Source: Rhizobium sullae
GTDB taxonomy: Bacteria; Pseudomonadota; Alphaproteobacteria; Rhizobiales; Rhizobiaceae
Length of the DNA stretch: 64,000 nucleotides
Direction of reading: 5' to 3'
Assembly (NCBI RefSeq): GCF_900169785.1
Contig: NZ_FWER01000002.1
Location: 136,225-200,224, forward strand
The notes beneath the pieces are model-generated. The model saw only the letters and a program-made list of their open reading frames with translations. It searched no databases and was not told the origin of the DNA. Position 1 is the stretch's first letter, and every line of letters starts with the position of its first letter. The position numbers and the translations under genes are program-made. This document shows, piece after piece, positions 28,076 through 32,308 of the stretch.

Positions 28076-28462
28076 TCAGAATTTCAGGGCCAGCGGATGG
28101 TCAGCCAGTGCCCGGTCGATCGTCACAAGCCGCAGCCCTTCGATCTGGCATTGGGCAAGCAGAAGGCGGTCGAAGGGATCGCGGGTATCCGGCTCGGGAT
28201 CGGCCGCGGTTATGACGTGGCTGACATCGATCCCAAGGAGCGACAATCCTATTTTCTGAAGAGATTGCGCCATCTCTTCAAGAGGCATACCGGGATCCAG
28301 CTTGCCTAGTCTTGCCTTGATCGCAGTTTCCCATAGGCTCGCGACACTCACAAATCCGACTGTTTGCGGCTCGCCTAACAAGGTCGTGACCACAGGAAAT
28401 CGCTGTGCAACATCCTTTCGCAAGATCGCAAGCACGATATGCGTGTCGAGCAGCAGCCTCAT
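28076..28462 (-). CDS. PIN-domain toxin (VapC-like)
   Basis: 128 aa. The PIN ribonuclease acidic residues are visible: Asp6 in LLLDTHIVL, Glu45 in 'SLWETAIKARLGKL', and Asp in 'DPFDRLLLAQC' and 'LVTIDRAL'. This is the type II toxin subgroup (COG3744-like) that cleaves RNA. Its ATG overlaps the antitoxin stop as ATGA (28459-28462), giving coupled translation. The antitoxin is encoded first, the usual order. Confidence 0.9.
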   Translation of the reverse strand: MRLLLDTHIVLAILRKDVAQRFPVVTTLLGEPQTVGFVSVASLWETAIKARLGKLDPGMPLEEMAQSLQKIGLSLLGIDVSHVITAADPEPDTRDPFDRLLLAQCQIEGLRLVTIDRALADHPLALKF

Positions 28463-28725
28463 GGTTCAGGCAGGGGCCTAAGGAGAAAATCCTCCGGCAA
28501 AGGATCGTCGAAATCGTCGGCTATGAAGGGCACGGGATTGGTAATGCCCTTCGACCGGAGGTAGGCTTGGCCAGCCTCCAAATTCAAACCGCCACGCGGC
28601 TTATGCGGGACGAGATCAAAGACCGGGCGGCCGTTTCGCGTCACGACAATCGTCTCCCCTTCCTCGACCTCGCGAGCGAGTTCAGTCAGGCGGTTCTTGG
28701 CATCGCGGATCGATACGGTTTTCAT
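28459..28725 (-). CDS. Phd/YefM-type antitoxin
   Basis: 88 aa. The N-terminal Phd/YefM DNA-binding fold (KTVSIRDAKNRLTELAREVEEGETIVVTRNGRPVFDLVPHK) is followed by a disordered acidic tail (DDFDDPLPEDFLL) that should wrap the PIN toxin. ATG 28725 starts the family motif and lies only 6 nt after the -10 box, suggesting a leaderless mRNA. It is the first gene of the toxin-antitoxin operon and likely autorepresses through the TGTGGC repeats in its promoter. Confidence 0.9.
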   Translation of the reverse strand: MKTVSIRDAKNRLTELAREVEEGETIVVTRNGRPVFDLVPHKPRGGLNLEAGQAYLRSKGITNPVPFIADDFDDPLPEDFLLRPLPEP

Positions 28726-28731
28726 ACGCCA

Positions 28732-28760
28732 AATGTAGCCACATGCAGCCACATCGTCAA
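28732..28760 (-). promoter_or_regulatory. Toxin-antitoxin promoter with operator repeats in the spacer
   Basis: On the minus strand: -35 TTGACG (28755-28760), a 17-nt spacer and -10 TACATT (28732-28737). The spacer contains TGTGGC-TGCA-TGTGGC, a 10-bp-period direct repeat suited to antitoxin binding. The antitoxin ATG begins 6 nt after the -10 box, where transcription is expected to start. Confidence 0.65.
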
Positions 28761-28825: not shown

Positions 28826-30378
<1,553 letters not shown>

Positions 30379-30744
30379 ATGTTTCTGGAGGAAGAGCGGG
30401 CCGCAGCGCGGCTTCGCGCCCGCCGGGTTTCGCTTTCATTTTTGATTGCAGTAAGCGTCGTCGCCGCTTCGACGATTGCGTTCGGAATCATTTCCACCGC
30501 CCGCGCCGAAGAGGCGCCACAGCCGCAGAAGACCGAGCAAATTGCCGGCTCCTTAACCGCACCGGTGGCGACAAACGGCGCGACCGCCCAACCCGCCGTT
30601 TCGGCCAAACCGCGGACGGCGACGCATGCCGACGGACAGATCATGCGCGGGCTGACTCTGCTGCTTTTCGCCCTGACCGCAGCGGGCGCACTGGCCGTGT
30701 GGCGCCGCCGCATCAAGCGCCTGATGACGGTGAGGAGCAGGTAA
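30379..30744 (+). CDS. Two-TM hypothetical protein; possible sortase-substrate remnant
   Basis: 121 aa. An N-terminal signal/membrane segment (LSFLIAVSVVAASTIAFGII, with an ARA|EE site) is followed by only about 50 residues of low-complexity sequence, then 'KPRTATHADGQ' and a C-terminal membrane helix ending in a basic tail (RGLTLLLFALTAAGALAVWRRRIKRL). That ending looks like a cell-surface sorting signal (LPxTA-like motif, helix, Arg-rich tail) with the first residue changed. I infer that a large extracellular domain was deleted, leaving both ends. ATG 30379 is preferred over 30373 by the GAGGG spacing. It overlaps the next gene as TAATG. Confidence 0.6.
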   Translation: MFLEEERAAARLRARRVSLSFLIAVSVVAASTIAFGIISTARAEEAPQPQKTEQIAGSLTAPVATNGATAQPAVSAKPRTATHADGQIMRGLTLLLFALTAAGALAVWRRRIKRLMTVRSR

Positions 30745-31097
30745 TGGGCCGCAACGGAAACCGGCTTCAGGACGCGGGCGAGTTCGAACCGCTTCCCTCT
30801 TACCTCGAACTGGCCATGGCGACCGCTGCGGCCACGGCCCACGACGCGCCGCGGCAGCGCGAGAAAGGCTTCCTTTTCTCGCGCCTTTCGATGGTCGAGC
30901 GGATGATTGCGCTCGGCATCGCCGGGCTTGCCCTGTATGGCGTCGCGCTGATGAGCGACGGCTTCTACATCAAGGGAAAGGCTGCGGTCGCGCAGATCCT
31001 GCTGCAGCGCTCCTTTGCCGAAGCCGACGTGGTGGACACGACGCCGACCGCCTCCATTCAACCGCAAAACACAAAGCCGTTATCTGCGCCGCAATAA
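30744..31097 (+). CDS. Short membrane protein resembling the N-terminus of a class GN sortase
   Basis: 117 aa with one membrane helix near residues 50-72 (MIALGIAGLALYGVALMSDGFYI), followed by KGKAAVAQILLQRSFAEA. This arrangement (helix, then YIxxKAxxAQxLLxRxFxxA) is what I know from the start of proteobacterial class GN sortases, but the catalytic beta-barrel with its His/Cys/Arg is absent; a short Thr/Pro-rich tail replaces it. It starts at the TAATG overlap with the preceding gene, so they are coupled. Alternative view: an unrelated small inner-membrane protein. Confidence 0.6.
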   Translation: MGRNGNRLQDAGEFEPLPSYLELAMATAAATAHDAPRQREKGFLFSRLSMVERMIALGIAGLALYGVALMSDGFYIKGKAAVAQILLQRSFAEADVVDTTPTASIQPQNTKPLSAPQ

Positions 31098-31159: not shown

Positions 31160-32308
31160 ATGACTATCGCCAGAACATTCGCCGCTTCCCTGCTTGCTGG
31201 CGTGCCCGTCTTCGCACCCGGCTTCGCCGCGGCAGCAGACAGGGTCGAGACCGAGAAGGTCGCAGTTAGCGTCGAAACCCTGGCGAATGGGCTGGAGCAT
31301 CCCTGGGCCGTGGAAGTCATGCCCGACGGCGCCTATCTGGTGACTGAGCGGCCAGGCCGGATGCGGATCGTCAGGGAGGGAAAGCTTTCAGATCCGATCG
31401 GAGGCGTGCCGGACGTCCGTGCCCGCGGCCAGGGCGGCCTGATGGACGTAGCGCTCGCGCCGGACTTCGCAACGAGCCGCACGATCTATTTCACGGCATC
31501 GACCGCCAATCGCAGAGGCTCGGGAACCGAAGCCTTCAGCGCCACGCTTGCCGCCGACGGCAGCAGGCTCGAGAACGTGAAGCCAATCTTCACCATGGAC
31601 CAGTTCACCGGCGGCAGTATCCAATATGGTGCGCGCATCGCCATCGCCCGCGACGGCAGTCTCTTTATCAGCATAGGTGACCGCGGCGACCGCGACCGCT
31701 CTCAAGACTGGAAGGATGATGCCGGCTCCATCGTGCATATCAATGCCGATGGGAGCATCCCTGCGGACAACCCGTTCAAGAACGGCGGCAAGGCACTGCC
31801 GGAAATCTGGTCGAAAGGCCATCGCAACCCGCAGGGCATCACCTTCGACACCGCCGACGGCAAACTCTACACCGTCGAACATGGTGCGCGCGGCGGTGAC
31901 GAAATCAATGTCATCGAGCCCGGCAAGAATTACGGCTGGCCGATCATCAGCTATGGACGGAATTACTCCGGCACAAAGATCGGCGAAGGCACGGCCAAGA
32001 AAGGGCTGGAACAGCCGCTGCACTATTGGGACCCCTCCATCGCCCCCGGCGCGCTCGCGATCTATCGCGGCAAGATGTTTCCGGAATGGGACGGCAACTT
32101 CCTCGTCGCAGCGCTCAAATTCGAACTGCTCTCCCGCATGCAGCGCGATGATAGCGGTGCTTTCGTTGCAGAGGAGCAGATTTTCGAAGGCGATTACGGC
32201 CGCATCCGCGACATTGTCATCGCACCGGACGGAGCGCTCCTGATGGTCACGGACGAAGCCGATGGCGCGCTACTGCGCGTCTCGCGCGCCGACCGTCAGA
32301 ACGGTTAG
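31160..32308 (+). CDS. Soluble PQQ-dependent aldose sugar dehydrogenase (YliI/Asd-like)
   Basis: 382 aa with a signal peptide (ARTFAASLLAGVPVFAPGFAAAA). The six-bladed beta-propeller of the glucose/sorbosone dehydrogenase family is seen in 'LEHPWAVEVMPDGAYLVTERPGRMRIV', 'GQGGLMDVALAPDF', 'ISIGDRGDRDRSQD', 'GHRNPQGITFD' and 'EHGARGGDEINVIEPGKNYGWP'. It oxidises aldoses in the periplasm with PQQ as cofactor, if PQQ is available. The segment QYGARIAIARDG replaces the more usual H(Y/F)G.R. ATG 31160 is used. It sits 62 bp behind the putative sortase remnants. Confidence 0.88.
   Translation: MTIARTFAASLLAGVPVFAPGFAAAADRVETEKVAVSVETLANGLEHPWAVEVMPDGAYLVTERPGRMRIVREGKLSDPIGGVPDVRARGQGGLMDVALAPDFATSRTIYFTASTANRRGSGTEAFSATLAADGSRLENVKPIFTMDQFTGGSIQYGARIAIARDGSLFISIGDRGDRDRSQDWKDDAGSIVHINADGSIPADNPFKNGGKALPEIWSKGHRNPQGITFDTADGKLYTVEHGARGGDEINVIEPGKNYGWPIISYGRNYSGTKIGEGTAKKGLEQPLHYWDPSIAPGALAIYRGKMFPEWDGNFLVAALKFELLSRMQRDDSGAFVAEEQIFEGDYGRIRDIVIAPDGALLMVTDEADGALLRVSRADRQNG

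Follow-up and report, generated by a model that had tools for sequence, protein, structure and literature searches.

A class GN sortase and its substrate reduced to overlapping membrane-stub genes in Rhizobium sullae and related rhizobia

Two short genes are found on the forward strand of the window, the whole 64,000-nucleotide stretch of Rhizobium sullae DNA analyzed here, between a divergent aminotransferase gene, which we take to be aatA, and a gene for a glucose/sorbosone dehydrogenase (Table 1). Both of the TAATG-coupled open reading frames recorded in the first-pass annotation are present, with a one-base overlap between the gene 1 stop codon (TAA, 30742-30744) and the gene 2 ATG (30744-30746). 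A gene 1 start at 30379, rather than at the in-frame ATG at 30373, is supported by the conservation of this N terminus (MFLEDE and variants) in relatives. Just past aatA, on the minus strand (28076-28752), a Phd/YefM-type antitoxin gene overlaps a PIN-domain toxin gene (PF02604 and PF01850, both over their cut-offs).

Table 1. Features of the reduced locus and its surroundings in the window
Feature	Coordinates	Strand	Basis
aatA, divergent aminotransferase gene, upstream; syntenic marker	28826..30028	-	
Promoter-region repeat 1 (GCCGCAACAAATGAC), similar in Rhizobium and Sinorhizobium	30280..30294	+	Upstream alignments
Promoter-region repeat 2 (GCCACAATTCGGTC), 22 bp after repeat 1	30302..30315	+	Upstream alignments, pattern search
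Gene 1, reduced sortase substrate, 121 aa, without VIT and VWA domains	30379..30744	+	ORF, profile search, alignment
Gene 1 N terminus and first hydrophobic segment, signal-sequence-like	30379..30507	+	Selection by region
Degenerate sorting motif KPRTAT (LPQTAT in intact relatives)	30607..30624	+	Alignment
Hydrophobic helix and basic tail at the gene 1 C terminus (ADGQIMRG..WRRRIKRL)	30628..30723	+	Alignment
TAATG stop/start overlap of genes 1 and 2	30742..30746	+	
Gene 2 (117 aa), class GN sortase lacking the catalytic barrel	30744..31097	+	ORF, profile search, alignment
Gene 2 conserved N-terminal motif EFEPLPSYLELAMATAAATAHD, putatively on the cytoplasmic side	30780..30845	+	Alignment
Gene 2 membrane anchor region (TIGR03784 positions 2-34)	30891..31007	+	Profile match
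Original sortase C-terminal tail, fused in frame to the anchor	31029..31094	+	Alignment with intact forms
Glucose/sorbosone dehydrogenase gene, downstream; syntenic marker	31160..32308	+	PF07995

Neither protein has a significant match in Pfam, and the same search finds no VIT or VWA domain in the gene 1 product. Among the NCBIfam models, gene 1 residues 45 to 113 (counted from 30373) match the last 60 of the 629 positions of TIGR03788 (marine_srt_targ, marine proteobacterial sortase target; E 7.7e-5), and gene 2 residues 63 to 95 match positions 2 to 34 of the 174 in TIGR03784 (class GN sortase; E 6e-5, 22.7 bits). Both scores are far under the curated cut-offs (158.25 bits for TIGR03784) and are weak when taken alone. 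At its C terminus, gene 1 encodes a hydrophobic helix and a basic tail, and the position of the LPxTA-type motif reads KPRTAT. The gene 2 product has an N-terminal membrane anchor followed by Y.K.KA..AQ.LL; in the anchor region, AlphaFold2 in single-sequence mode predicts a helix at residues 50 to 93 with low confidence (mean pLDDT 63.7). The motifs AHRDTH and TCWPF, presumably those of the catalytic His and Cys, are absent from all three forward frames over 1,200 bases from the gene 2 start (window locus, L089). In the R. sullae genome itself, there is no convincing second copy of PLPTYLELAMA (next best E 0.15) and no GN sortase over the cut-off, the sole other match being at chance level (13 bits).

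The C terminus of the gene 2 product, VVDTTPTASIQPQNTKPLSAPQ, corresponds to that of the sortases (intact forms: ..AELVD..TGSIQP.NTKPLS), and in the alignment its tail ...SIQPQNTKPLSAPQ is the tail of the intact proteins. The barrel deletion sits directly before this tail (31029..31094). Because the C terminus aligns in this way, the loss in gene 2 is internal, with the barrel removed in frame and the anchor joined to the original tail; simple truncation is ruled out. The first-pass annotation had both genes losing large domains, which stands, and gene 2 losing its end, which does not.

Homology to a complete sortase system is settled by syntenic orthologues, which precede the same sugar dehydrogenase gene and score high when intact. 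The pair at locus L085 matches the Pfam domains VIT, VWA, and Sortase and reaches 900 bits with TIGR03788 and 204 bits with TIGR03784, over both cut-offs; the intact sortase of L083 scores 208 bits. Most relatives encode a substrate of 777 to 800 aa with LPQTA and a full sortase. The dehydrogenase gene is found downstream in all 104 Rhizobium stretches surveyed and a divergent aatA upstream in 87 of them; the other 17, all with long substrates, may end too soon. The window shows the same layout, with aatA divergent upstream, then substrate, sortase, and dehydrogenase genes. Genes 1 and 2 are thus homologous, in shrunken form, to a VIT-VWA substrate and its class GN sortase, which together once made up a dedicated Gram-negative sortase system at this locus, with an LPQTA signal on the substrate. 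The first-pass annotation had recognized remnants of such a pair from the letters alone, and the profile similarities, weak in the window and strong in intact orthologues, together with the intact versions at the same place in other Rhizobium genomes, bear this out. The homologous ends, the order of substrate then sortase, and the adjacency of dedicated partners, as described in a portion of PMC3237569, are those of class GN sortase/marine_srt_targ pairs. Unlike these, the window pair lacks the His/Cys barrel and the VIT and VWA domains, and its LPxTA motif is degenerate.

Relatives of gene 2 are common in the genus. A contig scan of GTDB found 19, several of them on contigs that also entered the survey described below, and 34 of 61 genomes searched had a match. 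In the survey proper, a profile of 96 N-terminal positions matched 104 of 148 Rhizobium genomes, from each of which one stretch was taken. The substrate is long and the sortase retains both active-site motifs at 61 of these loci, including L140 (frame break in the substrate) and L129 (insertion between the genes). At 41 loci, a mini-substrate is followed by a deleted or inactivated sortase, and at two more (L083 and L084) by a sortase with both motifs. A long substrate with a defective sortase is found at none of the 104. Because of this asymmetry, the cargo may have been lost first, which would have freed the sortase barrel for loss. In L129 (genome G091), the approximately 1 kb between the substrate and sortase genes looks, by eye, like the start of a transposase gene. 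In at least one Rhizobium genome (G006, locus L051), the GN sortase is a different one whose N terminus lacks the PLPTYLELAMA motif.

The 41 defective loci include the window clade A (7 loci) and clades B (3), C (14), and D (9), as well as five loci with a full-length sortase and an altered active site (L109, L142, L148, L154, and L156) and three in which the sortase frame breaks after the anchor (L092, L111, and L145). All 41 are damaged either beyond the anchor or at the active site. The C-terminal tail is kept in frame in clades A, B, and D; in clade C, in the loci read through, a stop precedes the tail remnant. The form seen in the window recurs in a second R. sullae genome (G164) and in five other Rhizobium genomes, which rules out an assembly error or an accident of one strain; R. 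mongolense USDA 1844 and R. mongolense subsp. loessense carry this form. All 43 mini-substrates are open as far as the stop at gene 2. The gene 1 stop overlaps the gene 2 start at all 41 defective loci (-1, -4, -11, or -14), which suggests that gene 2 is translated by coupling to gene 1; the overlap is also present in both mini-substrate loci with intact sortase motifs. Locus L148 (G170) combines a full-length GN sortase, in which TCWPF has become TGWPF, with a mini-substrate still carrying LPQTA, and looks like an early step of reduction.

In a family search of 394 genomes, one genus with many short open reading frames stood out. It was taken as Sinorhizobium on the basis of up to 94% similarity over 2 kb to pSymB of S. 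meliloti 1021. All 33 of its genomes searched match, 9 with open frames of 245 to 252 aa and 24 with shorter ones. Among 27 loci analyzed in detail, 23 have a short gene 2 and four are intact (L195, L200, L201, and L202); L220, beyond the 27, has a short pair too. In the 22 reduced loci with gene 1 located, the two genes still overlap, by 8 or 11 bases (the pattern did not locate gene 1 in L218 and L195). The overlap is still there in seven loci (L190, L194, L207, L213, L215, L216, and L217) whose gene 1, of 65 to 77 aa, has no sorting helix. What remains of gene 1 is MFLD[DE]E.....R..ARWGFYLALAALAAC and similar sequences, and of gene 2 LARLSAIETI...LIGKGFYMKAKAE and the like. In L203 (G562), the first hydrophobic segment of the 70-aa gene 1 product runs directly into the C-terminal helix; of the barrel, gene 2 retains the Cys end and lacks the His part.

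A mini-substrate might still be sorted in trans by another sortase, forming a minimal display system. The LPxTA motif is kept in 7 of the 43 Rhizobium mini-substrates (L083, L084, L145, L148, L164, L176, and L179), two of which (L083 and L084) adjoin an intact sortase, and in 1 of 22 from Sinorhizobium (L210). However, it is degenerate in the rest, as in KPRTAT of the window, and the whole C-terminal signal is missing in the seven helix-less Sinorhizobium loci. Of the genomes with reduced pairs, 14 of the 41 from Rhizobium and 3 of the 24 from Sinorhizobium have TIGR03784 matches with E up to 0.01, all at this locus. Those over the cut-off are confined to five of the 41 defective Rhizobium genomes, each copy lying at this locus without an active-site motif, and occur in none of the 24 short-form Sinorhizobium genomes. 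Within class GN, the class searched for, no intact sortase was found elsewhere in these 65 genomes, and sorting in trans is extremely improbable.

The reduced forms do not cluster in a single lineage. On a FastTree phylogeny of the two flanking genes, the Rhizobium mini-substrates form 14 maximal clades, with a Fitch minimum of 10 changes, and the defective sortases form 12 (Fitch 9); collapsing weak nodes leaves the clade counts unchanged. By this tree, reduced Rhizobium lineages would sit in up to 14 places. In the midpoint-rooted tree of the 27 Sinorhizobium loci, the short forms make up five maximal clades, and Fitch parsimony counts only two changes. Global alignment gives clear deletion end points only in the little-diverged L083, L084, L092, L109, L111, L148, clade D, L203, L204/205, and L209/210, where the junctions differ between several reduced lineages; the linkers of clades A, B, C, E, and others align arbitrarily, and their junctions are not placeable. 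End points are nearly identical in L092, L109, and L111, whose reductions may be non-independent. Sub-clades D1 and D2 share both junctions though separate on the tree, so recombination or transfer may have inflated the count of independent reductions. In clade D, the deletion links KAKAEL and EAELVD where the two share a brief similarity, which is compatible with recombination at microhomology, and one junction might recur in this way. The first-pass annotation held that short homologues of the same length across distant genera would speak against its reading. Short forms are indeed found in many species and a second genus; however, they result from repeated reductions beside intact versions at the same locus and for that reason strengthen it.

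The pair is dispensable. No match was obtained in 44 Rhizobium genomes; 20 of them were searched for the dehydrogenase gene, and 19 loci were read. In all 19, aatA and the dehydrogenase gene adjoin, approximately 230 to 670 bp apart, and neither gene of the pair is found, so that the pair can be lost with nothing in its place. The dehydrogenase at 18 of these loci is more distant from that of the window (approximately 64 to 71% identical, against 78% in L221), and the pair-less loci may therefore stem from few losses. Tail-like remnants, seen by eye in several of 13 such loci (e.g., L221, L222, L225, and L228), indicate that the pair was lost there. Since tail-like DNA persists without the genes, conservation of the C-terminal tail was dropped as evidence of protein function.

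These losses raise the question of plain decay, in which the display of cargo is no longer useful and the genes erode, passing through in-frame deletions before they disappear. Selection was measured on pairs of loci with a common reduced form, using Nei-Gojobori counts and a codon bootstrap; the pairs were picked by hand from the trees and are not exhaustive. Over 23 pairs, pN/pS is 0.369 (0.32-0.42) for the whole reduced gene 1 and 0.322 (0.28-0.37) for gene 2. Both values are clearly below 1, as in selected protein-coding genes and not pseudogenes, with sub-clade D2 as the exception, and both genes are less constrained than the neighboring dehydrogenase gene (0.135). From the N terminus of gene 2 to the anchor, the 14 pairs of reduced Rhizobium loci give a ratio of 0.298 (0.24-0.37), the 9 pairs from reduced Sinorhizobium 0.254 (0.16-0.40), and the 17 intact Rhizobium pairs 0.230 (0.18-0.29) (an 18th was dropped, as the anchor pattern was not found in it). 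The Sinorhizobium set consists of branch-disjoint pairs, used in a repeat after a first set was not fully disjoint, and the result held. Codons 1 to 45 of gene 1 give 0.281 in reduced Rhizobium, 0.116 in reduced Sinorhizobium, and 0.310 in intact Rhizobium, a constraint that is moderate in the first and strong in the second. Past the anchor, gene 2 has a ratio of 0.108 in intact loci but 0.353 in reduced Rhizobium and 0.476 in reduced Sinorhizobium. Judged by these regional values, constraint has left the catalytic part but not the retained ends, where it is about as strong as in intact relatives.

Individual clades vary. Median dN/dS over all pairs, for genes 1 and 2, respectively, is 0.32 and 0.36 in clade A, 0.21 and 0.09 in B, 0.24 and 0.20 in C, 0.51 and 0.22 in D1, and 0.60 and 0.70 in D2, a sub-clade that looks relaxed; gene 1 in clade D as a whole is only weakly below 1 (0.642, 0.44-0.90). 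In L154 and L156 (G147 and G159), where the sortase has lost HRDTH, dN/dS of gene 2 from codon 81 on is approximately 0.07 (one pair), and the protein is possibly a pseudoenzyme under strong constraint. The high ratios in D2, the frame breaks after the anchor in L092, L111, and L145, and the absence of both genes at all 19 pair-less loci, several with a tail remnant, are what plain decay would produce. Yet decay would hardly leave the ends constrained about as in intact relatives, all 43 mini-substrates open to the gene 2 start, and the damage in each of the 41 defective Rhizobium copies after the anchor or at the active site. Moreover, reduced forms persist in the 14 clade C genomes and in 24 of the 33 Sinorhizobium genomes, with no loss seen there. 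Plain decay is therefore unlikely, and the selection tests favor a reduced function, a possibility raised earlier from the sequence, with D2 as the exception.

The region might also be kept at the level of RNA or DNA, as a regulatory RNA, an antisense gene, or a promoter inside the open reading frames. The window does contain a 237-aa antisense open reading frame, and sortase-tail DNA beside the dehydrogenase gene persists after gene loss. However, synonymous divergence in the reduced Rhizobium pairs (0.188 and 0.196) is close to that of the dehydrogenase gene (0.221), so that synonymous sites change about as fast as those of the neighbor and no strong constraint on RNA or DNA is seen. Stops interrupt the antisense frames in the 14 reduced loci checked, by which an antisense gene was ruled out, although one gene 1 antisense frame stays open in clade A and in some others. 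This class of explanations is highly improbable.

Two repeats upstream of gene 1 resemble each other across both genera, whether the locus is intact or reduced (in alignments of 44 loci and of 81 Rhizobium loci). The repeat 2 pattern occurs upstream of gene 1 at 94 of the 104 loci in Rhizobium, at all 25 in Sinorhizobium, and at none of the 19 loci without the genes; a stricter pattern covering both repeats is found at 89, 14, and 0 of these, respectively. This promoter block is a candidate ChvI site, with an inexact fit to the S. meliloti consensus N-GCC-N8-GCC, as quoted in an excerpt of PMC9731502. Excerpts of the literature link the S. meliloti orthologue of gene 1, SMc01580, to ChvI and to acid: ChvI binding to its upstream region is reported (PMC3687685, citing Chen et al.), an SMc01580 fusion rises at pH 6 but less without jspA or lppA (PMC10659215), and the gene belongs to an early acid-induced cluster (PMC2651895). 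Its value is also positive in the table for a mutant that lacks phosphatidylcholine (PMC8343143), and the Clr transcriptome lists it as a hypothetical transmembrane protein (PMC5498481). Part of a preprint counts SMc01581, which rises with NCR247, among the known direct targets of ChvI (PMC12486126). In an excerpt of PMC6637203, the SMc01580 counterpart in Ensifer adhaerens OV14 is annotated as a marine proteobacterial sortase target protein (80%).

Among the genomes examined, the five most similar (88 to 94%) to a 2-kb piece of pSymB from S. meliloti 1021 carry a reduced pair of 65 aa and 90 to 95 aa. The regulated SMc01580/SMc01581 pair is therefore probably the reduced form as well, and we infer that SMc01581 is gene 2. 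The window pair resembles these members of the ExoR-ExoS-ChvI regulon in the similar promoter block of the Sinorhizobium genomes examined and in the sortase-target annotation excerpted from Ensifer adhaerens OV14, whereas the reduced form and the identity of gene 2 in S. meliloti are read from its nearest genomes. Because ChvI control is published for the orthologue SMc01580, the reduced pair is predicted, by analogy, to be probably under ExoS-ChvI stress control in Rhizobium.

The conserved promoter invites a further explanation, namely, that the short frames keep ribosomes on the transcript, so that the upstream promoter can drive the sugar dehydrogenase gene without Rho polarity, while the peptides themselves are inert. 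The genes lie on the same strand with short gaps behind a conserved promoter block, and the gene 1 frame and the overlap are kept, as this would require. However, an open frame alone puts no constraint on amino acids, yet pN/pS is 0.12 to 0.30 in the ends and higher in the parts beside them. Gaps of 122 to 304 nt before the dehydrogenase gene are tolerated in 23 reduced Sinorhizobium loci (121 to 222 in the 4 intact ones), and the dehydrogenase gene persists at all 19 pair-less loci, where the promoter-block patterns are not found. A purely translational role is thus quite unlikely.

In this species and many others, then, the substrate has lost its surface domains in frame and the sortase has lost its barrel or an active-site motif, whereas the N termini and membrane segments of both, the gene overlap, the promoter block, and amino-acid constraint have been kept. 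We consider it likely, though well short of certain, that after repeated reduction of the pair the two anchors work together as a membrane module of two proteins, in a role distinct from sorting; the molecular nature of that function we infer. Sorting itself would have ceased, and the anchors would stay because of their second function. The two small inner-membrane proteins would be made together, likely as a complex, and be induced through ExoR-ExoS-ChvI under acid or envelope stress, and the conserved N-terminal segments (MFLEDE..R.R and PLPTYLELAMA..AAATA) might contact a partner. A more specific version, somewhat less probable than not, is that the sortase anchor and the signal-sequence region of the substrate alone make up a stress-induced membrane module that outlives sorting, being a second function in intact species and the sole remnant in dozens of others. 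Pseudoenzymes in general have lost their catalytic residues while part of the protein is kept under selection. The same is seen here, except that the enzyme and its substrate have been reduced together, repeatedly, to overlapping membrane-stub genes.

The sortase/substrate family is already known; the reduced state is new. A search of open-access literature found no report of sortase pairs without the catalytic domain. In the literature excerpts, SMc01580 and SMc01581 are described as hypothetical or transmembrane proteins. A likely identity can now be offered for these two genes, which serve in a symbiotic rhizobium to monitor the ChvI pathway of acid and envelope stress. The envelope stress response is the best lead on the role of the stubs, which may act when the cell meets acid or envelope stress. 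Anchors and signal sequences are commonly regarded as passive addresses. The joint and repeated loss of enzyme and cargo, with the anchors still constrained, points to a hidden function of sortase anchors, and the reduced pairs provide natural separation-of-function variants with which that function may be tested.
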